From: Cloacibacillus evryensis DSM 19522
GTDB taxonomy: Bacteria; Synergistota; Synergistia; Synergistales; Synergistaceae
Reading direction: 5' to 3'
Length of the DNA: 64,000 nt
Assembly (NCBI RefSeq): GCF_000585335.1
Contig: NZ_KK073872.1
Location: 2,967,283-3,031,282 of the forward strand
The position numbers and the translations under genes were made by a program. This document shows positions 28,902 through 44,757 of this stretch, piece after piece. Numbering within the stretch: position 1 is the first letter of the stretch; each line of letters starts with the position of its first letter. The notes beneath the pieces were generated by a model. The model was given only the letters and a program-made list of their open reading frames with translations, was not told the DNA's origin and ran no database searches.

Positions 28902-31900
28902 TTAGTCTTTTTTGCCGCCCTTTATCAGCGCGGTGACGTCCTGGCCGATCGCGATCGCCATCGACGGCTTGCCGGAGGGGTCGAATACGGCGGTGTACGT
29001 GACGGTCATCCACTCGGCCGGCCAGAGCTTTTTGTTGTAGTGGATCGTTGCCGAGGCGGTCCTTTCGCCGTTTTTGATCTTTTCATGGAGCGCCGTATAT
29101 TCGACGGCGCTGTCCGGCATTACGATGCCGTCCGCCAGCGCCGCGCGGTAGGCTCCGGCCAACACTTCTTTGACGCCGTAGCGGTAAGCGCTGTTTGCCG
29201 ATATCGTGAAGCAGTCTTCCTTTATATCATAGGTCCAGAGCGCGATGTTGGCAGACGAGAGCGCAAGCTCCACCTTTTTGCTCTCCGTTATGTCGACGCA
29301 CGAGACCATCACCATATCGCGCCCGTTCCAGCGAAGCGGGGAGACGTAAGAGAGCACGAGCATTCCGTCCGCGCGCTGCACCTCCACGACGCGCGGCGCT
29401 TTCGGGTCGTGCAGGCGCAGGACGGGACACTCTTCACATGGCTCATCGCGCCCGATAAATTCCCGGTAACAGTTTTTGCCGACAAAATCATTTTTGTAAA
29501 AATCCTGGATCGCCTTGTTGCTGTAAATGACCTCGAAGGTATCGGACGTGATGATATAGACAAAGGCGGAGTTGTCGTCGAGCGCGGCGCGGAAATCGGC
29601 GGAGAAGGCCGCGTTGTCGGATTTGCGCAGTTTGAGCAGGAATGAAGAGACGATGCGCGATACGAACATCAGCGTTCCCACCTGTTCCTCCGTCCACCGG
29701 CGATCCGCGCGGCACTCGTCAAAGCCAACCATGCCGGAATAGACGCCGTCGTCTTTGATGGCGCACTGGAGCACCGCGAAGATGCCCTGCCGTTCAAGAA
29801 TCGCGCGAATCTCCGGCGGCAGCGCGCTCATGTCCGGACAATAGAATACTCCACTCTCGTCAAAGCAGGAGACGTATTGCCGCCATCCCCCGATCTCGTC
29901 GTAAGAAACGTGCTTCAGAAATTCCTTCTGCGGTTCCACGCCGGGAGCGCACCATTCGAAGGTGTTCTCGCTGGCGCTGTGCCCGTCCACATCTTCTATG
30001 ATATAGACGCGGCTGAGGTCGTAATATTCGCCGAGCAGGGCGAGGGTCGTCTCAACCGCACCGCTGATATCGGAGGAGCTGTAAAACAGGTCGAATATCT
30101 GGCTCACGACGTCGTCGTTGAACTTATATGCCGTAGGGGCCGCGTTGAGCCGATGCCGTATGGACTCCGCCAGCTCCGCGCGCTCTTTGAATTCCTGGAT
30201 GTCGTCGGCCTGACCAACGATGCGGTAGACACGCCCGTTCGCGTCTTCCACGCTCGAGTACCGCATCCTGAACCAGCGCATTCCCTTCCCCCACAGGTTG
30301 GCGCGGAATTCGATCTCCCCGTCCAGATGAGAAAGCCGCCCCTGCCCGATCACACGACGCAGGTCCGCGGCGCTCGCGGGATGCAGCAGCGGACTTTCAA
30401 GACAGCCATCGCAGCAATTAGGCACGGAGCGCCTTTCAACGCCCGCTCCGGGCAAATATACCTGATAATATAAAACGTCGGAGGCATAATCGTAATCAAA
30501 GAGGCCGGAGCCTGTGGCCTGCATAAGCAGGCGGCGGCGTTCGTTCTCGACCTCCTGCTCCAGCTCCATCCGTTTGCGGCCGCTGATGTCCTCGATCGAA
30601 AGATAAAGAATGGAGCTGTCCTTGTTTTTCGCCAGCAGACGTATCCTGTTGTGCGTCCACGGACGGGTTATGCCGCCGGCCCCGGGGATGCTGCGCAATT
30701 CGCAGCCGCGTTCCTCTCCGGTGGCGATCGCGTTCGTCAGCTCTTCTATGAGCTTCGCCCTGTTTTCATCGTCAAAACAGCGAAGCATGTCTCTCTGTAC
30801 CGGAAGACAGGCATCCCGCGTCGTGCCCAGCGCTTTATAGAAGTTTTCGTTGACGCGCAGCGCTTCCAGCGTTCCGCCGCTGTATTCCAGGATCGCGGCT
30901 CCGCCGACGAAGCTGTTGAATAAAAGCGCGGTCTGGGCGGAGGCGTCCCAGAATGCCGCCATGCCCTCGACATTCGTGTCTTGATATCTGTCTATCCGCG
31001 AGGACGCGCTCCGGGCCAGCAGTTCTTCAAAATCATCGTCCGGCATCGGGTGCGCGAAGTAATAGCCCTGCATATAGACGCAGCCAAGGCTTTTCAGATA
31101 GTCGGCCTGAGCCTTAGTCTCCACGCCTTCCGCTATTATGGGCAGCCTGAGCCAGTGGGCCATACGGATCACCGAGCACAGGATATTGCCGCCGCGCGCG
31201 CTGTCGGCGCAGTTGCTGAGGAATTTCATGTCGAGCTTGAGGATGTCCACAGCGACGTCCTTCAGCGTGTTGAGCGAGGAATATCCGCTGCCGAAATCGT
31301 CCATTTCCACGGTGAAGCCGGCTTTTCGCAGCGCCTCGACCGTGTCTATGAGCTGCTGCTGGCTCTCCATATAAGCGGATTCCGTAATTTCCAGCCGCAG
31401 CGCGGAGACCGGCAGTTCGTATTTTCGTATGATCTTTTTGAGAGTATCACATAATTGCGGATCGCAGATGTCGAGGCGCGAAACATTAACCGATACCGAA
31501 AAGTCCCTTGCCCACGGGAAAAGGTCTATCCATCTGCGTATGTATTTGCAGCAGCGTTCCCAAACGTATTTGTCGAGCCGCGTTATCAGCCCGTTTTGTT
31601 CAAACAGCGTGATGAAATCCGCCGGCGGGAGCAGCCCCCTTTGCGGATGCCGCCAGCGGACCAGCGCCTCCGCGCCGGTCAGGGTGCCGTTCCCGTAGTT
31701 TATCTGGGGCTGGAAATAGAGTACAAATTGTTCGCTTTCCAGCGCCGCCTCCATATCGCTCACAAGCTGCTGTTCGTCCAGCAGGCTGGCGCGCAGTACG
31801 TCGTCGTAATAGGCCAGCCTCGTGTCGAAACCGCTCTTTATGGAACGCAGCGCCAAAAGCGCCCTGTCGCACATGAGCGAAACATCCACCGACGGGTCGG

Positions 31901-34900
31901 TGACGCGGTAGACGCCGATTGAGAATGAGATGTAGAAATTCGGCGAATATCCGGCGAGCCATTTTATCAGCTTATCCACGGAACGGCGTTTGGCGCCCGA
32001 GTCGTCCGGCACGAAGAGGGCAAAGTGGTCGGACTCCAGCCTCGCGCTGAGGATTATCTGCCGGTGGTAGCGCCTTATACGGTCGGCGACGTCGCGCAGG
32101 AGGCGGTCTCCGGCCGCGGTTCCGCGCACGTCGTTATATACTTTGAAACGGTTGACGTCGAAACGGATGATCTCATATCTCATGTCGCGGCCGGCGTCCA
32201 GTATCTCCCTCACGCGGCGGTAAAAGGCCTGCTTGCCAAGCAGTCCCGTCAGTTCGTCGTTCTCGCTGACCCGAAGCATATTCATCTGCTGCTGGCAGCG
32301 AAGCTCCAGCGCGCGATAACGTTCTGCGAGGCCGCCTTCGTCATCCGCGCCGAAAGGCTCGTCCTCCGCGTCGACGTAGGCCACGGCGGATTCGCCGTAC
32401 ATTTGCGAAGCGCCGCGGCAGGCGAGAGAGGCCTTTTTCAGAAGCAGGTCGTAAGACACGCCGCCCGCCCTTCCGGTCGAGAAGCCCCCGATAAGATTCA
32501 CGTTGGTTCCAGGGTGAGCCTGCGCCAACAGTTCTTTGAGCAAAGCCATCGTGTTACGGACGCGCTCCCGCTGCTCCTCGCCGCCGCCGGCGTCAGTGCG
32601 CAGCATCACGACCCTGTTCTCGTCGAGCTGCCCGATGACCACGTCTCCGCCGATCGTTATCCTGCACATCCGGCCAAAGGTGAAAAGCACCTCCCGCGCC
32701 TCGAAGCCGCCGCTTTCCTCCCTCAGCCGCTCAATGCCGAGCATTTCGACCACGGAGACGGCGACGACTTTATCGTCCGGGCAGACGGAGATGATATATC
32801 TGGAAAAGGCCGCCATGGATTCACGCGAATAGAGCAGCAGCGTCGTGTCGCGCTGCAGCGGAGTTCCGAACGCAAGTTCCCAGCGGCGGCGCGTTTCATT
32901 GTCGCGGAGGTACCCGAAAGCCACCACGTCGCCGCTGATCGGGTGCCGCATAAGTTTTATGAAGAGGCTGGCCCAGCGGCGGGAACCGTCCGCGCCGATA
33001 TGCCGGTAATCGACAAACATCCAGCTCTCGCCGCCGCGGAACCTATCCATCAGGTATTCACGGCCGGTCAGCCGCCTGAATTGTGTCAAATCTGCCGCGT
33101 CTACAAATTTGGCGCTGTAATCGGCGCGGTATTCGTCATACGTTACGCCCCGCGTGTCATCGTAACGGTTGTCGCCGTTCATGTTGGCATATTCCACCAG
33201 GTTTTGCGTAAAATTCGCCCGCACGTGTCCGACCAGCGAGTTTTCGATTATGGAGGCGTAGCGCAGCTCGTGTTCAAAGCGGCGCATGTCGGCGTTTATA
33301 TTCGGCACCATCTGCGTGATCCCCAGGGCCCTGCGGGGCGTTCCGTTTTCGTCGCGCAGAAAGCGGAATTTGTCCTCCACCCAGAATTCCCCGCCGTTTT
33401 CGTCACATATCTTGACGTAATAGGTACCGCTGTCGCAGCCGGCATAGAGGTCCTCATAAAGTTTGCGCAGCCTGGCGACCGAATCGGGGTGGACCGTGCT
33501 CGCGCGGAGGTAGCTCTCCGGCGCGTCGGGAAATACCAGCGTCTCATAATTGAACTTCTTCCACACGGAGCCCGTGAGAGTGAGCGTTTTCGAGGCGATG
33601 TCCACCTCCCAGAGCATCGCGTCGGAAAGCTGCGCCGCGGTACGGTAACGTTCCTCCGCTTCGCGCAGCTGTTCGTTGACATGTTTAAGGCCTGTTATAT
33701 CCGTGATCACCGAGACGATGCGCTCGATGCCGTCCGCCGACTCGGGGATACGCTTGGCTCTGATACGCCGCCACTCTGTCGTGCCGCCATAAGAGACGCG
33801 GTACGAGTGATCTATGAGATCGTTGCTGCGCACCGCGTCAAAGACCGCCGCTCTGAGCCCCGGCAGGTCTTCGGGGACCACGAACGAAAATATTTTTTGT
33901 ACGCCGCCCGCGGCCTCGTCAGGGGTGTGTGCGAAGGATCTGTAAAAACTGGGACTCACATAGGTGACGCGGATGTCGTCGGTGACCTCGGCCAGCACCA
34001 CGCCGCCGTCCATATAATCCAGAAGCGTGCGCAGCTGTACGGTACCCACGTTTTCCAGAACAGGCCGGGGCTCGCCGCCATTGATGTTATTTTGCTCCTC
34101 ACGGTCAAAGAAGCTGCAGCGATTCTTTCCTCTTCTCTTCGATTGATAAAGAGCGCAGTCAGCTTCGCCGTAAAGCGTTTTAAAATCACGCTCTCCCGCC
34201 GTAAAGACCACGACGCCGACGCTGGCCGTGACCTCCAGCGTCCGTTCTCCGCAGCTGGCGGCAAACTGCAGCGCGGAAACGAGCTCGTCCGCTTTTTTTC
34301 GCACGGCCGCTTCCGAGGGCGCGCCCTTCATCAGAGCCATAAATTCGTCTCCGCCCATACGTCCGACGATATCCGAATCACGGAAAATGCCTTTTACGGC
34401 ATCGGCCACATCCGTCAACATCCGGTCTCCGTACTGATGTCCGAAATTGTCGTTGACATCCTTAAAATTATCGAGGTCGATCATAAAGAGGGCCTGCATG
34501 CCCTCGGCGCCGTCGAGATAACGCTCGATGCGCCCGGCCGTGGATTCGTGATTCAGAAGGCCGGTCATCGAATCGCGTTCGGCGGCTAAGATCAGCAGGG
34601 AGTATTCGCGTCTGGCCTTATCGATATCGTGCAGAACGATGATCAGCGACAGATTGCCGTTTACAGGGTCAAGCAGTAAGTAAAGGTCGTCGCGCACCCA
34701 GCGCTCGCCGCCGTCCGGCATCCGCCGCAGATATTCCAGAGAGCGGCCCCTCTTGCCTTTGTTGTATTCCCTCTCAAGGAATCCGGGAGAAAGCTTTTTG
34801 AAAAATTCGCGTACCTCGTCGTCGTCGACCACCGAGGCGGAGATATTCTCAAAATACTGGTCTATCTGCCCATAGCGCGAGGTCACCTGATCGCTTTCAT

Positions 34901-35405
34901 CGCGGCAGCGCACGTCGACGACGCGCCATGATGTGATATCGAACAAAACCGATAAAAGCGCCCCCTCCGGCAGCTCGAAAAGATTGCGCAGCTCGTTTTC
35001 ATAGCTCTGCCTCGCTTCATATTCGACCGTGATGTCGCGTGAAATGCCGAAGATGCCGGCCGGGTCGCCGGCCTCGTCGCGCAGGATATATTTTGAAGTC
35101 AGGCAGTAGCGCGGCCTGCCGTTTTCCGACGTTATCGGTTCGACATAATTTTCCAGAGAGCGGCCGCCCTCCACCAGACGCGCGTCATCATCCACGTAGC
35201 GCTTCGCCAGCTCTTTGTCCGCGAATATCTCAAAATCGGTTTTGCCGATAATTTCGTCCGCGCCGGCGCGGCCGGCCATCTTCGCAAAGGGCTGTGAATA
35301 GCCCATATAAACGCCGCGGATATCCTTTACAAAGGCGATATCCCGCGTATGACGCCAATATTTATCGTAAGCGCTCCACAAAAGCTCTTTCCCGTCGTTC
35401 GCCAT
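28902..35405 (-). CDS. Giant multi-PAS GGDEF-EAL-GAF signalling protein (2167 aa)
   Basis: A very large soluble-looking regulator of cyclic-di-GMP with no visible membrane segment or signal peptide. Order: PAS at the N-terminus (RDIAFVKDIRGVYMGYSQPF); a further sensory region; an intact GGDEF at 351-355 with an RxxD inhibitory site five residues before it; several PAS/PAC units (about 460-1010); a second, degenerate cyclase domain where GGDEF is ESDHF (about 1122-1126); an EAL domain from E1246 with NVSR, EITES, DDFGSGYSSL, KLD, EGVE and QGY all present; more PAS, a GAF-like region (about 1750-1900), and two last PAS domains, one with a CYREF-PCEECP cluster. It should both make and break cyclic-di-GMP. 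GGAGGG precedes ATG 35405. Monocistronic. Confidence 0.9.
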   Translation of the reverse strand: MANDGKELLWSAYDKYWRHTRDIAFVKDIRGVYMGYSQPFAKMAGRAGADEIIGKTDFEIFADKELAKRYVDDDARLVEGGRSLENYVEPITSENGRPRYCLTSKYILRDEAGDPAGIFGISRDITVEYEARQSYENELRNLFELPEGALLSVLFDITSWRVVDVRCRDESDQVTSRYGQIDQYFENISASVVDDDEVREFFKKLSPGFLEREYNKGKRGRSLEYLRRMPDGGERWVRDDLYLLLDPVNGNLSLIIVLHDIDKARREYSLLILAAERDSMTGLLNHESTAGRIERYLDGAEGMQALFMIDLDNFKDVNDNFGHQYGDRMLTDVADAVKGIFRDSDIVGRMGGDEFMALMKGAPSEAAVRKKADELVSALQFAASCGERTLEVTASVGVVVFTAGERDFKTLYGEADCALYQSKRRGKNRCSFFDREEQNNINGGEPRPVLENVGTVQLRTLLDYMDGGVVLAEVTDDIRVTYVSPSFYRSFAHTPDEAAGGVQKIFSFVVPEDLPGLRAAVFDAVRSNDLIDHSYRVSYGGTTEWRRIRAKRIPESADGIERIVSVITDITGLKHVNEQLREAEERYRTAAQLSDAMLWEVDIASKTLTLTGSVWKKFNYETLVFPDAPESYLRASTVHPDSVARLRKLYEDLYAGCDSGTYYVKICDENGGEFWVEDKFRFLRDENGTPRRALGITQMVPNINADMRRFEHELRYASIIENSLVGHVRANFTQNLVEYANMNGDNRYDDTRGVTYDEYRADYSAKFVDAADLTQFRRLTGREYLMDRFRGGESWMFVDYRHIGADGSRRWASLFIKLMRHPISGDVVAFGYLRDNETRRRWELAFGTPLQRDTTLLLYSRESMAAFSRYIISVCPDDKVVAVSVVEMLGIERLREESGGFEAREVLFTFGRMCRITIGGDVVIGQLDENRVVMLRTDAGGGEEQRERVRNTMALLKELLAQAHPGTNVNLIGGFSTGRAGGVSYDLLLKKASLACRGASQMYGESAVAYVDAEDEPFGADDEGGLAERYRALELRCQQQMNMLRVSENDELTGLLGKQAFYRRVREILDAGRDMRYEIIRFDVNRFKVYNDVRGTAAGDRLLRDVADRIRRYHRQIILSARLESDHFALFVPDDSGAKRRSVDKLIKWLAGYSPNFYISFSIGVYRVTDPSVDVSLMCDRALLALRSIKSGFDTRLAYYDDVLRASLLDEQQLVSDMEAALESEQFVLYFQPQINYGNGTLTGAEALVRWRHPQRGLLPPADFITLFEQNGLITRLDKYVWERCCKYIRRWIDLFPWARDFSVSVNVSRLDICDPQLCDTLKKIIRKYELPVSALRLEITESAYMESQQQLIDTVEALRKAGFTVEMDDFGSGYSSLNTLKDVAVDILKLDMKFLSNCADSARGGNILCSVIRMAHWLRLPIIAEGVETKAQADYLKSLGCVYMQGYYFAHPMPDDDFEELLARSASSRIDRYQDTNVEGMAAFWDASAQTALLFNSFVGGAAILEYSGGTLEALRVNENFYKALGTTRDACLPVQRDMLRCFDDENRAKLIEELTNAIATGEERGCELRSIPGAGGITRPWTHNRIRLLAKNKDSSILYLSIEDISGRKRMELEQEVENERRRLLMQATGSGLFDYDYASDVLYYQVYLPGAGVERRSVPNCCDGCLESPLLHPASAADLRRVIGQGRLSHLDGEIEFRANLWGKGMRWFRMRYSSVEDANGRVYRIVGQADDIQEFKERAELAESIRHRLNAAPTAYKFNDDVVSQIFDLFYSSSDISGAVETTLALLGEYYDLSRVYIIEDVDGHSASENTFEWCAPGVEPQKEFLKHVSYDEIGGWRQYVSCFDESGVFYCPDMSALPPEIRAILERQGIFAVLQCAIKDDGVYSGMVGFDECRADRRWTEEQVGTLMFVSRIVSSFLLKLRKSDNAAFSADFRAALDDNSAFVYIITSDTFEVIYSNKAIQDFYKNDFVGKNCYREFIGRDEPCEECPVLRLHDPKAPRVVEVQRADGMLVLSYVSPLRWNGRDMVMVSCVDITESKKVELALSSANIALWTYDIKEDCFTISANSAYRYGVKEVLAGAYRAALADGIVMPDSAVEYTALHEKIKNGERTASATIHYNKKLWPAEWMTVTYTAVFDPSGKPSMAIAIGQDVTALIKGGKKD

Positions 35406-37234: not shown

Positions 37235-37355
37235 CGGTTCGCATGTGTAGCATTTCGGAGTGTGGCACATTGCTATAATAAGTGCATCCCAACTGGGATG
37301 TTACCGTGAGGTTTGCCCCGGTTTTGGTTTTAGTACCTTAACCGGGGTATCCTCT
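37235..37355 (+). ncRNA. tracrRNA of the type II-C system
   Basis: The anti-repeat starts near 37248: 20 bases (TAGCATTTCGGAGTGTGGCA) pair perfectly with the 3' part of the crRNA-sense repeat. A four-base internal loop follows, and GCTATAAT pairs with the repeat's 5' end. Downstream are the hairpin CATCCC-AACT-GGGATG (37285-37300) and a long final hairpin CCCCGGTT/AACCGGGG (37316-37347), then a pyrimidine-rich stretch. The layout resembles the Neisseria II-C tracrRNA. Its promoter is TTGCAA-17-TATACT (37199-37227), giving a start near 37235. The exact ends are estimates. Confidence 0.92.
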
Positions 37356-37398: not shown

Positions 37399-40300
37399 AT
37401 GAATGCTTCCATACTTGAACATTACTCACTCGGCCTAGATATTGGAATTACCTCCGTCGGTTGGGCTGTTCTCAATCTAACCGTGGGGAAAATAGCTGAT
37501 CTTGGCGTCCGCCTATTTGACAAAGCGGAAGAACCAAAGACAGGAGCCTCCCTTGCCGCGCCGCGCAGAGAGGCAAGAAATATGCGCCGCAGGCTCAGAC
37601 GAAAAAGGCAGCGCATGTCAAATATTCGTTCACTCATCATCTCCTGCGGCATCCTTTCACAGACGGATATGGACAATCTTTTCAATTCTCCGCATCAATG
37701 TACTCCCTGGGAGCTTAGAACCGAAGGGCTTGACCGCCTGCTCACATGTGAGGAATGGAGCCGCATCCTCATACACATGGCAAAACATAGAGGCTTTAAA
37801 TCAAATAGGACTGTAGCTGAAAGCGACATAAAAAACAGCGAGGACGGCAGGGTCCTATCTGGAATAAAAGAAAACAGCGAACTGCTTCAAGCCGGCAATA
37901 ATGGCGCCGGTTACAGGACAGTCGGAGAACTCATCCAAAGCGACCCCAAATTTTCCGGCCACAAGCGCAACAAAGGCGGAGAATACTCGCATACGATTCT
38001 CCGTAAGGATATAGAGAAAGAAATAGAGGCTCTCTTTGAAGAACAACGTAAATTTGGAAGTACCTACGCCTCTATGGAATTGGAGAAAGAATATAAGGAT
38101 ATTTTTGGAAGACAGCTCCCATTCGCGTCCGACGGCGCGATAGAAAAACTTATTGGATACTGCTTTCTTGAGCCTGCCGAAAAAAGAGCGCCAAAAGCAT
38201 CGTGGACGGCGGAACGTTTCATCCTCCTAAGCAAAATTATGAATCTAAGAGTACGCTTAGACGGCAAAAAAGTTTCTCTGAGCGGAGATGAACGGATAAC
38301 CATTGATAACCTTGCCTACAAGAATACAAAGGTCACATATAAACAGATACGAAAAGCTCTCAACTGGCAGGATAACTTAATTTTTGACAGCCTTCCGTTC
38401 ACAAAAAAGGACAAGGACCCCGAAGATAGCGTTTTTATTGAGCTGAAGGGCTGGCACACATTCAGAAAATGCCTCTCGGAAAAATTAGGAACGGACTATT
38501 GGGAGACAATAAGCGTAAATCCGGATCTTCTTGATGATTTAGCCTACACTTTGACATTCAAAAAGACGGATGAGGATATTGCGAGGTATCTTGAGGAACG
38601 GAACATCGACAAAAAGATTATCGACGCGGTTCTTCCCCTCAATTTTTCCGGCGTCGTAAATCTGTCAGCCGCAGCGATGGGCAAGCTTATCCCGCTTATG
38701 GAAAAGGATGGCTGCCGCTATGACGAAGCCTGCGTCAAAGCCGGTTATCTCCACTATAAACCAGCGGAAAAAGAGCGCTCCCTAAAACTTCCCGTGCCGG
38801 ATTGGAAGGAAATAAGGAATCCCGTCGTCATCCGCGCCATCGCAGAGACACGCAAAGTAGTAAACGCCGTCGTGCGAAAATACGGACCGCCAGAGTCAGT
38901 TCAGGTTGAGCTTGCACGAGACCTCTCTCGTTCGAAAGAAGAAAGAGATAAAATTATAAAAGAACAGGAAGAAAATAGATCTCAAAAGGAAAAGCTGGCA
39001 AAAGAGTTTCAGGACAAGTTTGATTACGCGCCCAACGGACGGCAACTTGAGAAATTTCGTCTTTGGAAGGAACAAAACGGTTTTTGTCTATATACCGGAC
39101 AATATCTTGCACCTGAAGACGTTTTTAACGGCAGTGATGACAGCTTCGCGGAGATAGACCATATCATTCCGTACAGCATCTCTTTTGACGATAGCCGGAT
39201 AAATAAAGTATTGGCAACTTCCGGCGCCAACAGAGATAAGGGAAACCGCCTTCCATATTATTACTTCGGTGGAGACGGTGAAAAATGGAACGAATTCACC
39301 GCTCGCGTTAATGCCAATATCCAAAACAGGAAAAAGGCCGCGCGCCTGAAGATAAAAAGCCTTGATGAGAGTGACATCTCTGAAATGAAAGAACGAAATT
39401 TGAGCGATACGAGATACATAACAGAATACGTCGCAAAATGGCTAGAGGAAAACCTGTTATTTGCCGAAAAAAAGACCGAAAATCATGTCACGAGAATCAA
39501 CGGTCGGGCCACAGCAACGCTGCGCTGGCAGTGGGGAATCAATGCTCTGAAAGACCGCGAAAGCAGCGACCTTCACCATGCGCTTGACGCCTGCGTCGTC
39601 GCGGCGGCAACGCCAGGTATAATAAAAAAGATCTCCGATTATTCGCGTAACAGAGAGCTGCAAAAATTAAAGATCAACGCAGAGGGCAATAAAAAAAGAC
39701 GCTGTCCCGAACCGTGGGAGCACTTCAGGAAAGAGGTCGAAGCACGCCTCTCCGAAAATCCGGCAGAAAAGATACTGGAATTCGGCCTTGCCAGCTACAG
39801 CGAGAGCGAACTGAACGATCTGAAACCTATCTTCGTTTCCCGCCGCCCTGACCGCGGGGCGACAGGGGCGGCCCACAAGGACACTATATACTCAGCGAAA
39901 TACCTTAATGACGATCCACCCAAAATAGTCGTAAAAAAAGCGCTGACATCTCTAAAAAAAAGCGACCTCGAGAACATAGTAGGCAAAGAAAGAGACCGTG
40001 CTCTCTACGAGGCGCTTGCCAAAAAGCTCGAAGAATATGAAGATAATCCGGAAAAAGCGTTCAAAGACGTTTTTAGAAAACCGACCAGCAATGGAAAACC
40101 AGGCCCCATCGTACATTCTGTTAAAATTTTTGACTCGCGCGTTACCGGTCTGCCGGTAAACGGCGGTATCGCCTTCAACGACGGCATGGTCAGGATAGAC
40201 CTCTATCAAAAAAACGGCAAATATTTTTTAATACCATATTATATCAGTGATATAGCAAAAAAAATTGTAAAGGACAAGGCAATAGCGCAGGGCAAAAGAG

Positions 40301-40581
40301 AAGACGACTGGATCGCTATAGACGAAACCTATAACTTCGTCTTCTCCCTATTTAAAAACGATCTCGTAAGAATAATCGACAGTAAAGGCAGGGAAATATT
40401 CGGATATTACAACAGTTGCGACAGAGCAACTGGAGCTATTGAAATAAAAAAGCATGACGGAAGCGCGTCGTGGCGTGGGATAGGAATCAGAACTGCGAAG
40501 CTGATTGAAAAATATCAGGCGGACGTCCTAGGAAGCTACTACAAGATAAAGAAAGAAAAGCCGCCGCATGGGTTGGCGTAA
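37399..40581 (+). CDS. cas9: Cas9, type II-C
   Basis: The RNA-guided nuclease, 1060 residues, in the range of compact II-C forms. RuvC-I is SLGLDIGITSVGWA with D14; the Arg-rich bridge helix (RREARNMRRRLRRKRQRM) spans about 54-74; RuvC-II is ESVQVELARD with E504; the HNH domain has EIDHIIPYS with D587 and H588 and NRDKGN with N611; RuvC-III is LHHALDACV with H726, H727 and D730. All catalytic residues for cutting both strands are therefore present. A C-terminal PAM-interacting region of about 250 residues follows; the PAM cannot be read. AAAGGGAGG precedes ATG 37399. The gene overlaps cas1 by 14 bases and lies just after the tracrRNA. Confidence 0.97.
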   Translation: MNASILEHYSLGLDIGITSVGWAVLNLTVGKIADLGVRLFDKAEEPKTGASLAAPRREARNMRRRLRRKRQRMSNIRSLIISCGILSQTDMDNLFNSPHQCTPWELRTEGLDRLLTCEEWSRILIHMAKHRGFKSNRTVAESDIKNSEDGRVLSGIKENSELLQAGNNGAGYRTVGELIQSDPKFSGHKRNKGGEYSHTILRKDIEKEIEALFEEQRKFGSTYASMELEKEYKDIFGRQLPFASDGAIEKLIGYCFLEPAEKRAPKASWTAERFILLSKIMNLRVRLDGKKVSLSGDERITIDNLAYKNTKVTYKQIRKALNWQDNLIFDSLPFTKKDKDPEDSVFIELKGWHTFRKCLSEKLGTDYWETISVNPDLLDDLAYTLTFKKTDEDIARYLEERNIDKKIIDAVLPLNFSGVVNLSAAAMGKLIPLMEKDGCRYDEACVKAGYLHYKPAEKERSLKLPVPDWKEIRNPVVIRAIAETRKVVNAVVRKYGPPESVQVELARDLSRSKEERDKIIKEQEENRSQKEKLAKEFQDKFDYAPNGRQLEKFRLWKEQNGFCLYTGQYLAPEDVFNGSDDSFAEIDHIIPYSISFDDSRINKVLATSGANRDKGNRLPYYYFGGDGEKWNEFTARVNANIQNRKKAARLKIKSLDESDISEMKERNLSDTRYITEYVAKWLEENLLFAEKKTENHVTRINGRATATLRWQWGINALKDRESSDLHHALDACVVAAATPGIIKKISDYSRNRELQKLKINAEGNKKRRCPEPWEHFRKEVEARLSENPAEKILEFGLASYSESELNDLKPIFVSRRPDRGATGAAHKDTIYSAKYLNDDPPKIVVKKALTSLKKSDLENIVGKERDRALYEALAKKLEEYEDNPEKAFKDVFRKPTSNGKPGPIVHSVKIFDSRVTGLPVNGGIAFNDGMVRIDLYQKNGKYFLIPYYISDIAKKIVKDKAIAQGKREDDWIAIDETYNFVFSLFKNDLVRIIDSKGREIFGYYNSCDRATGAIEIKKHDGSASWRGIGIRTAKLIEKYQADVLGSYYKIKKEKPPHGLA

Positions 40582-41446
40582 TGTGATAATCGGCAGCCCC
40601 GCTAAGCTTTCGCTTCGGCTGAACCACCTTGTCATCAGACAAAAAGAAGAGGTGGAAATCCCGCTGGAAGACATCTCGGTTATAATCGTCGAGAATGAAC
40701 AGGCGGTCATCACCTCCAGTCTCCTCAATATGCTCGCGGAAAAGGATATACCGCTTTTTACGTGCGGCAAAAACCACATTCCCTCAGGCCTTTTAGTCTC
40801 ATACCAGGGACACAGCCGTTTTCTGAAGGTATTGAAAGGACAGTTGGGACAAACCCTGCCATTCAGAAAGAATTGCTGGCGGCTTGTGGTTCGGCAAAAA
40901 ATCAATAATCAGGCCGCCTGTCTTGAAATTCTCGGCAAAAAAGGTGTTAGTGAGCTTCGCGCCATCGCGGAAGATGTACGCAGCGGGGATAAGGAAAACA
41001 GAGAGAGCACTGCGGCAAGAATATACTTCGACAGCTATATGCCGCAGACCACCCGACAAGAGGACAATGGTGTAAATGCCGCGCTGAATTACGGATATTC
41101 AATCATGCGCGGCGCTGTGGCCAGATCCATGACATCATACGGGTTTTTGTGTGCTATCGGCATACATCATAAAAATGAACTGAACTCTTTTAATCTGGCA
41201 GACGATTTCATGGAAACGCTGCGTCCCGTGGTTGATCTCTGGACTGCACGAAATATTGAAGAAGGGCAAATTTTCACAATAAAAGACAGAACGGCGTTGG
41301 TATCTCTGCTGAATTCCCCGATAACGATCGACTATGCACGGCAAAGTATCATCAGGGCGATTGACATAATGTCCGGAAGCTTCAGTACAGCCACGTCGTC
41401 ATGCGATCCAGATCGACTGAAACTGCCTGTACTGGATCTGCGTTAG
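40568..41446 (+). CDS. cas1: Cas1 integrase, type II
   Basis: The catalytic subunit of the Cas1-Cas2 spacer integrase, 292 residues. The start MGWRNVIIGSPAKLSLRLNHLVI is typical of type II Cas1. The metal-binding triad is visible: E146 in RESTAARIYF, the His pair at 200-201 in IGIHHKNELNSFNLADDFME, and the acidic residues that follow at about 215-218. It overlaps the cas9 end and is followed by cas2 after four bases, so the three are one operon. No csn2 or cas4 is present, as expected for II-C. Nothing suggests inactivation. Confidence 0.96.
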   Translation: MGWRNVIIGSPAKLSLRLNHLVIRQKEEVEIPLEDISVIIVENEQAVITSSLLNMLAEKDIPLFTCGKNHIPSGLLVSYQGHSRFLKVLKGQLGQTLPFRKNCWRLVVRQKINNQAACLEILGKKGVSELRAIAEDVRSGDKENRESTAARIYFDSYMPQTTRQEDNGVNAALNYGYSIMRGAVARSMTSYGFLCAIGIHHKNELNSFNLADDFMETLRPVVDLWTARNIEEGQIFTIKDRTALVSLLNSPITIDYARQSIIRAIDIMSGSFSTATSSCDPDRLKLPVLDLR

Positions 41447-41450
41447 CACT

Positions 41451-41786
41451 GTGCCCGCCGCAAAAAGGTTAAGATTTTTGAGAATTCTAGTATTCTTCGA
41501 TCTTCCCGTCGTCTCCAAAGATGAACGGAGAATATATACGAGATTCAGAAAGTTCCTCATCTCCGACGGTTATGACATGCTTCAGTTTTCCGTCTATTGT
41601 AGGATAGTAAACGGGGAAGACGCGGTGGACAAGCATTTAGAACGACTGAAAAAAGAATTGCCCGAAAAGGGCTCCGTGCGATTTTTGCAGATAACGGACA
41701 GGCAATACGCTGCGATGAAACTACTCATCGGAGTGAGAACGAAAAAAGAAAAATTCGTAGATTCCCGCCAAACATTGCTCTTTTAA
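41451..41786 (+). CDS. cas2: Cas2, type II
   Basis: The structural partner of Cas1 in spacer acquisition, 111 residues. The ferredoxin-like start LRFLRILVFFDLPVVSK contains the conserved Asp; FLISDGYDMLQFSVYCRIV and RFLQITDRQYAAM follow as in type II Cas2. The start is GTG 41451, giving MPAAKRLRFLRIL; no ATG is available nearby, and the N-terminus could be a few residues shorter. The CRISPR array begins 62 bases after the stop, so the whole adaptation module is intact. Confidence 0.93.
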   Translation: MPAAKRLRFLRILVFFDLPVVSKDERRIYTRFRKFLISDGYDMLQFSVYCRIVNGEDAVDKHLERLKKELPEKGSVRFLQITDRQYAAMKLLIGVRTKKEKFVDSRQTLLF

Positions 41787-41848: not shown

Positions 41849-42169
41849 ATTATAGCATTTCGGAGTGTGGCAGAGAGCTATAACTAGCATCGTCGTACAT
41901 TAACGGACCTATTAATTATAGCATTTCGGAGTGTGGCAGAGAGCTATAACTAGCATCGTCGTACATTAACGGACCTATTAATTATAGCATTTCGGAGTGT
42001 GGCAGAGAGCTATAACCAAAAAGATTGCGGGAGCTATGCGCCGCCGATTATAGCATTTCGGAGTGTGGCAGAGAGCTATAACGAACGATGATAATACCAA
42101 TATCGAGATTATATTATAGCATTTCGGAGTGTGGCAGAGAGCTATAACTGTACGGGATATAAGAACAAG
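41849..42169 (-). CRISPR. CRISPR array, cas2-proximal part (five repeats, four full spacers, one cut spacer)
   Basis: 36-base repeats start at 41849, 41915, 41981, 42047 and 42113, with 30-base spacers. The crRNA sense is the minus strand, judged from complementarity to the tracrRNA and from the GTTATAG...CTATAAT polarity shared with other II-C repeats. Each repeat ends, in that sense, with TGCTATAAT, an extended -10 promoter. The two spacers nearest cas2 (41885-41914 and 41951-41980) are identical. The fifth spacer (from 42149) is cut after 21 bases by the inserted IS. Confidence 0.97.
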
Positions 42170-44230
42170 CCCGACTTTTACATCACACCAGAGTCAAAAC
42201 CATCCGAGCCGTTGCTACAACCGATATTTTTCTCTTATCTGAGCAAAAGGCTCTGTTATGCTATTTTATCCCCTTAAGAAATCTGTTAAAGACTTCCTGC
42301 TTTGGATAAGCATCGTAGAAATCAACGCAAAATGCCTTTTGTATCTTGGCATAATCAAGCGCAATCTCGTCTTCGCAGGAAAAAGCAAGTGTGTCGACCT
42401 GTTTACCATTGCGCCCTATACGCTTTTTAAACGCCATGCTGCCGCCTACATCCAGAAGATGCACAATGCCTCCGCGCAGGACCTGGCAATTCGCCGCTCC
42501 AAGTGCCGCCGCTATTCGTTCGGCGGAGATGGCGTCTTCCCCCATTTTTAGCTGCAGCAGCCTCACTATCAGCAGAGCTGTAAAACAGATAGTGAAATGA
42601 GCCAGGATATGCTTCTGCGTGCTTACAAAGACTGGCCTTGCTTCGAGACCTGACTTCATTACCCTAAAAGACTGCTCGATGCGCCAAAGACCGCCGTAGA
42701 CCTCGCGTATCTTTGAGGCATCATATTCCATCTCGCTTGTGATGATGCAGAAATAACCGTCGAAACGGGAATCTGCCTCGGCCTTTTCTTCGTCCAGTTT
42801 GAGTCTCTTTCTGACGTTTTTTACTATATGCCCGTCGTGACCGTCGCGAATCTCTTCTTTTGTATATTCGAGGCATCCGTGCTGAATAGAATAAGCGTTA
42901 TTTTTTGTTGCGTTCTCAGCACGCAGCAATTTTTCCACACGCTTGCGGCGAGCCATTTCTGCATCTGCCCGACTCCAGTAAATAAGAACCTTGCGGCATC
43001 TTTCAACTGAGTGTCCGTCGTTGTCCTTGCCTGTGTACTCCTCTGTAAAGAGTTTGTAACGGTAACTGCCGTCTGCATTCTGTATATATCCGCCGTCATC
43101 GAACATCGCTTCATGGTAGCGGCTGCCCTTCTTGCCGCGCAGCACCTGAGACACGACATAACCGTCGCCGTTATTGCAGATCATGTCGATATTCTTTGAA
43201 GTGTTCAATCCCTTATCTGCGACAACGACAAGCCTCTTCAGACCATAGTTCCCGCGCACCTCTGCCATCACAGGCTTAAGCGTCATACAGTCGCTCCTAT
43301 TCCCCGGAAACAAAGACATACATGCAGGCAGACCCTTCTCATCAAGAAATAGCCCCATCTGGATTATAGGATCCACCCTATGTTCCTTAGAAACCCCGCG
43401 CCTGCGGTATCCTCCTTCATCGTCAGGGAAATCTATATCGAAAAAGAAATTGGTAACATCATAAAAGGCATAAGACATATCGCGCCCTATGCTGCGCTTC
43501 ACCTCATTATTCAGCCAAAGTTGGAGATCCTGCGACATATCTCCGAACACGTCGAGAGCTCGGTATGCGTCCTGCAAAGAAAAATCGCATGACAGGCCGT
43601 AGAATTCCTCCTTCATCTGACAGCTTCCCCTTTTGGAATCAGGAGCCAAAATGCGAGTCAACACAAAAAACTTAAATATCTCAGCCAAAGGAATATTGCC
43701 CTTATATCCAGAGTATGCAGCATACCGTTCAATAAAGCCGTCAATCTCAAGACTGTTATATAGTGCCTCGAGGAACCTGCAGCCATAATTCCTTACGCGG
43801 TTGGACAGTGAATACATCTTAAGCGTAGAAGGAACCTCAAGCCGTGTCACCGGCTCATTCTTGCAGTTTTCGTCATACTCGCGAACCATAGCCATAAAAG
43901 CCACAGGATCCTCCTGATCCTCCAAATAGCCAAAATTCTTTAGAGTACGCTGCTTTGGAGGACATCCTGGCCCAGGTCTGTAGCCCTCGACCACGCGAAC
44001 CTGAGTTTTGACTGCGCCGCTCTTATATACTCTGCTGTCCTTGCGGATCATGACAAATCGCCTCTTCTCCAGAAAAAGAATGAAGAACAATACAAATATA
44101 GTATAGCACAACAATAGCATAACGTAAATAGAATAAAGAAAACCCGAAACAGAATTGTAATTTTCCGCTCCGGGACTGGGTTTATTGATGGGTCGATTTG
44201 TGGACTTCTAGATTTTCTGTAAAAGTCGGG
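42170..44230 (-). mobile_element. IS1634-family insertion sequence inside the CRISPR array
   Basis: A 2061-base element with a 13-bp perfect terminal inverted repeat (CCCGACTTTTACA at 42170-42182, complement at 44218-44230) around one transposase gene. It is flanked by a 56-base direct duplication (42114-42169 and 44231-44286). Long, variable target duplications are known for IS1634-type elements. The single base C at the left junction makes the boundary uncertain by one base. Confidence 0.93.
42261..44060 (-). CDS. IS1634-family DDE transposase
   Basis: The transposase of the element in the array, about 599 residues if started at ATG 44060 (MIRKDSRVYKSGAVK), or 619 from 44120. Family features: the N-terminal GPKTKQ-like segment (CPPKQRTLKNFGYLED), YDVTNFFFDID with the first catalytic Asp, LVVVADKGLNTSKNI with the second Asp, and the C-terminal YGGLWRIEQSFRVMKSGLEARPVF, which holds the Y-x2-R/W-x-I-E signature with the catalytic Glu. 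The frame is uninterrupted, so the element may still be active. Its codon use is less GC-rich than the chromosome around it, in line with a mobile origin. Confidence 0.93.
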   Translation of the reverse strand, partial: RFVMIRKDSRVYKSGAVKTQVRVVEGYRPGPGCPPKQRTLKNFGYLEDQEDPVAFMAMVREYDENCKNEPVTRLEVPSTLKMYSLSNRVRNYGCRFLEALYNSLEIDGFIERYAAYSGYKGNIPLAEIFKFFVLTRILAPDSKRGSCQMKEEFYGLSCDFSLQDAYRALDVFGDMSQDLQLWLNNEVKRSIGRDMSYAFYDVTNFFFDIDFPDDEGGYRRRGVSKEHRVDPIIQMGLFLDEKGLPACMSLFPGNRSDCMTLKPVMAEVRGNYGLKRLVVVADKGLNTSKNIDMICNNGDGYVVSQVLRGKKGSRYHEAMFDDGGYIQNADGSYRYKLFTEEYTGKDNDGHSVERCRKVLIYWSRADAEMARRKRVEKLLRAENATKNNAYSIQHGCLEYTKEEIRDGHDGHIVKNVRKRLKLDEEKAEADSRFDGYFCIITSEMEYDASKIREVYGGLWRIEQSFRVMKSGLEARPVFVSTQKHILAHFTICFTALLIVRLLQLKMGEDAISAERIAAALGAANCQVLRGGIVHLLDVGGSMAFKKRIGRNGKQVDTLAFSCEDEIALDYAKIQKAFCVDFYDAYPKQEVFNRFLKGIK

Positions 44231-44721
44231 TTATAGCATTTCGGAGTGTGGCAGAGAGCTATAACTGTACGGGATATAAGAACAAGCTCTCTGTAATTAT
44301 AGCATTTCGGAGTGTGGCAGAGAGCTATAACCGTTGGTGGCGGCTCTACCACGAGATAGAGATTATAGCATTTCGGAGTGTGGCAGAGAGCTATAACAGC
44401 AAGCAAATTGAGGGGTTGCGCTCGCCTATTATAGCATTTCAGAGTGTGGCAGAGAGCTATAACTTTCTGTCGTTCATTGCCGTACCTCCTTCAATTATAG
44501 CATTTCGGAGTGTGGCAGAGAGCTATAACGGCCGGCACAATCGAACGCACGGGACAGCAATTATAGCATTTCGGAGTGTGGCAGAGAGCTATAACCCGCT
44601 TGTGATATGCGCGTCGGCGCGTTTTATTATAGCATTTCGGAGTGTGGCAGAGAGCTATAACAATTACGTACTAACGCTACACTATCGTCTAATTATAGCA
44701 TTTCGGAGTGACCTTATAAAC
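44230..44721 (-). CRISPR. CRISPR array, distal part (seven repeats plus one degenerate end repeat)
   Basis: Repeats start at 44230 (first base changed by the IS junction), 44296, 44362, 44428 (one G-to-A change), 44494, 44560 and 44626, with 30-base spacers, and a degenerate last copy at 44692. The first repeat and part of the first spacer duplicate sequence left of the IS. Before the insertion the array had 12 repeats and 11 spacers. In the crRNA sense the degenerate repeat comes first; only its 5' half is eroded, and the half with TGCTATAAT is intact. Confidence 0.96.
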
Positions 44722-44757
44722 CAAGGAGCTGAGCAGACCGTTTAGTAGTTCCATCAG

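Follow-up and report, generated by a model that had tools for sequence, protein, structure and literature searches.

An IS1634-family insertion sequence at the extended -10 promoter of a type II-C-like CRISPR repeat, with a long target duplication that probably spares the complete spacers

In the window of Cloacibacillus evryensis DSM 19522 DNA analysed here (the whole stretch of 64,000 nucleotides), a CRISPR array is split by an insertion sequence (IS), both flanks of which carry the same 56 bp, in which 35 of the 36 bases of a repeat are joined to 21 of the 30 bases of a spacer (Table 1). This arrangement raises the questions of whether the insertion itself made the duplication, why the element landed at this position and whether the array can still be used. 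We consider it very probable that the element inserted at the extended -10 promoter of a repeat, that the 56 bp upstream of the cut were duplicated, and that the complete spacers remain usable.

Table 1. Coordinates of the CRISPR-Cas locus, the insertion sequence and the target duplication (positions in the window)
Feature	Position	Strand	Remarks
tracrRNA anti-repeat candidate	37244..37279	+	repeat match 29/36
cas9	37399..40581	+	1060 aa; TIGR01865, 776 bits
cas1 (type II)	40568..41446	+	TIGR03639
cas2	41451..41786	+	TIGR01573
CRISPR array	41849..44727	-	12 repeats and, at 44692, a degenerate terminal one; the IS splits the array
Intact repeat left of the IS	42113..42148	-	GTTATAGC...TGCTATAAT; promoter of the next spacer kept
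Left copy of the 56-bp target duplication	42114..42169		35 repeat and 21 spacer bases; identical to 44231-44286
Remnant of the interrupted spacer, 21 nt	42149..42169	-	repeat-proximal end; own promoter displaced by the IS
IS1634-family insertion sequence	42170..44230	-	2061 bp; perfect 13-bp TIRs
DDE transposase, 619 aa	42261..44120	-	Pfam DDE_Tnp_1 and NCBIfam transpos_IS1634, above cut-off
Transposase promoter candidate	44100..44128	-	TTTACG-17-TATACT with TG (TGCTATACT)
Intrinsic terminator-like hairpin in the IS	44143..44174	-	between the IS 5' end and its own promoter
Junction repeat, 35/36	44230..44265	-	TGCTATAAC; directed into the 5' end of the IS
Right copy of the 56-bp target duplication	44231..44286		starts TTATAGCAT, i.e. 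ATGCTATAA towards the IS on the minus strand
Interrupted spacer, complete copy	44266..44295	-	TACAGAGAGCTTGTTCTTATATCCCGTACA

The CRISPR-Cas system is type II-C-like: its operon consists of cas9, cas1 and cas2 without csn2 or cas4, which is the gene content of subtype II-C, and the array starts 62 bp past cas2. The period of 66 bp corresponds to a 36-bp repeat and a 30-bp spacer. Type II-C repeats contain an extended -10 promoter within the repeat, and each repeat of the array ends, at its 3' side on the minus strand, in TGCTATAAT; we infer that the minus strand is the transcribed one. An Rfam search with the tracrRNA candidate returned no match. Neither viral contigs, searched with two spacers, nor phages, searched with the right-hand part of the array, contained an exact protospacer match, and the interrupted spacer has no second match in its own genome at up to 2 mismatches. 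In the only genome of the same genus searched (G001), a related CRISPR locus (L069) is decayed, with 4 repeats, a cas2 remnant and unrelated spacers, and neither cas9 nor cas1 was found nearby. At the cas2 end of the array, two adjacent spacers (41885-41914 and 41951-41980) are identical, a separate duplication inside the array that is unrelated to the IS. Elsewhere in the window, a 2167-aa open reading frame (28902-35405, minus strand) reads like a multi-domain sensor/cyclic-di-GMP protein.

The inserted element belongs to the IS1634 family, as an earlier note on this DNA had proposed. Its transposase scores 317.5 bits with the NCBIfam model transpos_IS1634 (NF033559; cut-off 100), its ends start with C and carry the terminal inverted repeat (TIR) CCCGACTTTTACA, and its length lies a little above the 1.5-2.0 kb quoted for the family. 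Target-site duplications (TSDs) in the family are either 5-6 bp or long and variable, and the 56- and 35-bp duplications found in this genome are of the long kind. The genome holds two more full copies, L002 and L003, both 100% identical apart from 1 bp deleted in L003. The latter copy has an exact 35-bp TSD at TGTTATAA^T, and its insertion point lies 48-57 bp ahead of a prepilin-like gene. L002 (G000:C1:961251-963311) lacks a TSD and has 134 bp of one flank in common with L003; this flank looks rearranged, or looks to have moved together with the copy.

The identity of the two flanking copies, which the earlier note had reported, extends over all 56 bases, and the symmetry of the TIRs sets the TSD at this length. 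The duplicated repeat bases prove little, because all units of the array share them; the proof of duplication lies in the 21 duplicated spacer bases and in the fact that each copy ends exactly at a TIR. A real target duplication arising from the insertion is the best reading of the sequence and is well supported, in agreement with the note, as are its claims that one repeat was added and that the interrupted spacer was kept whole. In window order, the first base of the junction repeat (44230) is at the same time the final base of the IS and carries G where the repeat otherwise has A.

The note had missed that such a duplication length is normal for the IS1634 family. For IS1634 and IS1549, direct repeats varying between 8 and 514 bp in length were reported, with no mechanistic model, and for other family members duplications of 5-6 bp (PMC2266710); that of ISGka5 is 6 bp (PMC8024623). 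Among the family relatives collected here, duplications ranged from 14 to 554 bp, and the TSDs of the subgroup to which the element belongs measured 35, 39, 56, 60, 69, 93, 136, 160 and 194 bp. Since long duplications are a habit of the family, a previously duplicated repeat-spacer unit is unnecessary. The relatives lie mostly on MAG contigs, and about half of them are without an identifiable TSD. A scan of genome contigs with a single-protein query gave no loci and one with an alignment query gave 18. Matches in plasmids were all below 60% identity, and no related IS was found in viral contigs.

The insertion point is also non-random, which the note had not recognised: the element cuts the extended -10 promoter of the repeat, the target of its subgroup. 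The ends of relatives with 31-62% transposase identity, mostly above 40%, were set by the terminal repeats only, and the flanks were read afterwards. TATAA adjoined one IS end in 16 of 16 subgroup insertions with both ends resolved, a set that includes the own-genome copies L001 and L003; the chance of TATAA at an end is about 0.7% per insertion (p ~5e-35 for 16/16). The motif was TGNTATAA in 14 of 18 cases, and each of the 7 junctions scored, from 6 insertions, had T as the following base in the native continuation, so that the intact target site reads as TGNTATAAT, an extended -10 promoter element. In a separate sample found by the terminal-repeat pattern alone, TATAA adjoined 8 of 24 single ends (p ~2e-14), where it is possible at about half of the ends at most. 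Target choice is well supported at the level of sequence. A 75%-identical IS copy, itself interrupted, is flanked by a 60-bp duplication with one mismatch and is anchored at TATATTATA instead of TGNTATAA. At the anchored end TATAA always reads towards the IS, which places the duplication upstream of the cut in the relatives too; in several cases (L003, L061, L092) a visible host gene has its start codon some 30 to 60 bp downstream of the site. Capture of a promoter for the transposase is not a rule behind this orientation, as some copies have the motif at the 5' end of the transposase and others at its 3' end.

The extended -10 rule belongs to the subgroup and not to the family, because TATAA is lacking at the TSDs of 18, 88, 96, 188 and 288 bp that flank other IS1634-family elements of this genome. 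Family-wide TATAA targeting is ruled out by the long TSDs of other subgroups that lack the motif, several of them with a T-tract end. Long duplications with one end at a T-tract were seen at L130, L136, L027, L043, L047, L044 and L050, all from other IS1634 subgroups; these ends are perhaps terminator tails. Two further arrangements were observed. A 334-bp derived MITE (L198; G192:C45) with the same TIRs is anchored at TATAT and flanked by 24-bp duplicates that differ at one base, and at L062 two IS copies stand in tandem about 194 bp apart, the second with TGATATAA towards the IS at both ends.

We propose that, when an IS1634-family element entered the type II-C array, one of its ends was joined within the extended -10 (TGCTATAA^T) at the 3' end of a CRISPR repeat and the second 56 bp upstream of this cut. 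Filling-in of the staggered target would have duplicated the 56 bp, which hold the repeat with its promoter and, from the spacer upstream, 21 nt. Since the copied segment is in every case upstream of the -10, the promoter would keep its native downstream DNA and the changed copy would face the IS. The subgroup transposase would recognise TGNTATAAT-like sites, and the likeness of these to its own subterminal repeats and transposase promoter perhaps underlies recognition. Consistent with this, many relatives carry subterminal GTTATGCTA-like repeats, and in many a promoter with TGCTATAAT or TGCTATACT is located some 100-160 bp in from the 5' end; together, these repeats and the internal promoter span about 20-160 bp inside the IS ends. 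A terminator-like hairpin lies at most about 100 bp from the 5' end in 8 of 14 elements, upstream of the promoter where one was found, and would insulate the transposase from the promoter of the landing site.

In the split array, the promoter copy facing the IS is altered from TATAAT to TATAAC, and the other copy retains its native downstream spacer. Each complete spacer is preceded by an intact repeat and followed by one whose 5' part is unchanged. With a promoter in the former and a handle in the latter, each should still yield crRNAs, and crRNA production likely continues. A II-C array of Flavobacterium psychrophilum that is split by an IS is transcribed on both sides (PMC10309648). The expectation in the earlier note that crRNAs arise on both sides is plausible by this analogy and given per-repeat promoters, production as such being a prediction. 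Its view that immunity was modified without being broken holds for the complete spacers only: the 21-nt fragment has lost its promoter, and the promoter facing the IS has changed.

Two identical repeat-spacer units could have pre-existed, in which case the IS would have entered between them without duplicating any target and would have removed 10 bp, namely 9 bases from the first spacer plus the base that opens the next repeat. The array does hold adjacent identical spacers, but this course requires an earlier duplication as well as an exact 10-bp deletion ending at TATAA, whereas the relatives have long TSDs as a rule and the sister copy has one of 35 bp; we find it very hard to credit. The TATAA anchor itself might come from RNA polymerase or a sigma factor at an open promoter, recruiting the transposase or exposing the target, rather than from sequence reading. 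The cut falls within the -10 element, host start codons often lie 30-60 bp on, where the TSD defines the downstream side, and upstream-only duplication would suit the geometry of the polymerase. However, other subgroups of the family anchor elsewhere, and direct recognition by the transposase suffices and is favoured because the target resembles the element's own subterminal repeats and promoter; recruitment by the polymerase is possible but doubtful.

As to the outcome for the host, the insertion might silence the array on one side and so damage immunity, in line with the TATAAC now present in the junction promoter and with the terminator-like hairpin at the IS 5' end. Yet the upstream repeat ending in TGCTATAAT is intact for every complete spacer, and the IS256-split F. 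psychrophilum array is transcribed on both sides (PMC10309648), which makes silencing improbable. We therefore retain the reading in which the element inserted at the extended -10 of the repeat and the complete spacers stay usable.

Already known are IS insertions in CRISPR loci, long IS1634-type duplications, and II-C arrays that are expressed although split. The present element shares its transposase family and long variable duplications with IS1634 of Mycoplasma mycoides and IS1549 of Mycobacterium smegmatis (PMC2266710); neither an extended -10 target rule for these two nor the promoter-copying geometry is described in the literature searched, which did not extend to the original IS1634 and IS1549 papers. 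F. psychrophilum CN46 likewise has a II-C array that carries promoters in its repeats and has been entered by an IS, with transcription of the two halves shown by RNA-seq, but the element is of the IS256 family and the excerpted text describes no long duplication that copies a repeat (PMC10309648). Natural IS disruption of CRISPR-Cas loci has been reported for cas genes, with immunity abolished (PMC10359306), whereas here the array was hit and complete units were kept. Fixed target motifs are also used by site-specific elements, such as the IS1202 family at dif sites (PMC10132070) and REP-targeting IS (PMC1525189); as far as the excerpts of these sources go, our case differs in that the target is a promoter -10 element and a single end is anchored.

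Taken together, we think it reasonably probable that an IS1634-type clade is specific for extended -10 promoters, that its long, one-sided duplication copies this promoter, leaving the host gene with a full one and giving the element a copy next to it, and that II-C repeats are natural landing pads at which stored spacers are spared. An end anchored at a fixed motif, with the other end floating upstream, is a constraint for any model of IS1634-type duplication. The finding would link transposon targeting to promoters, explain how II-C arrays are hit yet stay usable, and provide for the addition of a repeat to an array by a route other than Cas1-Cas2.
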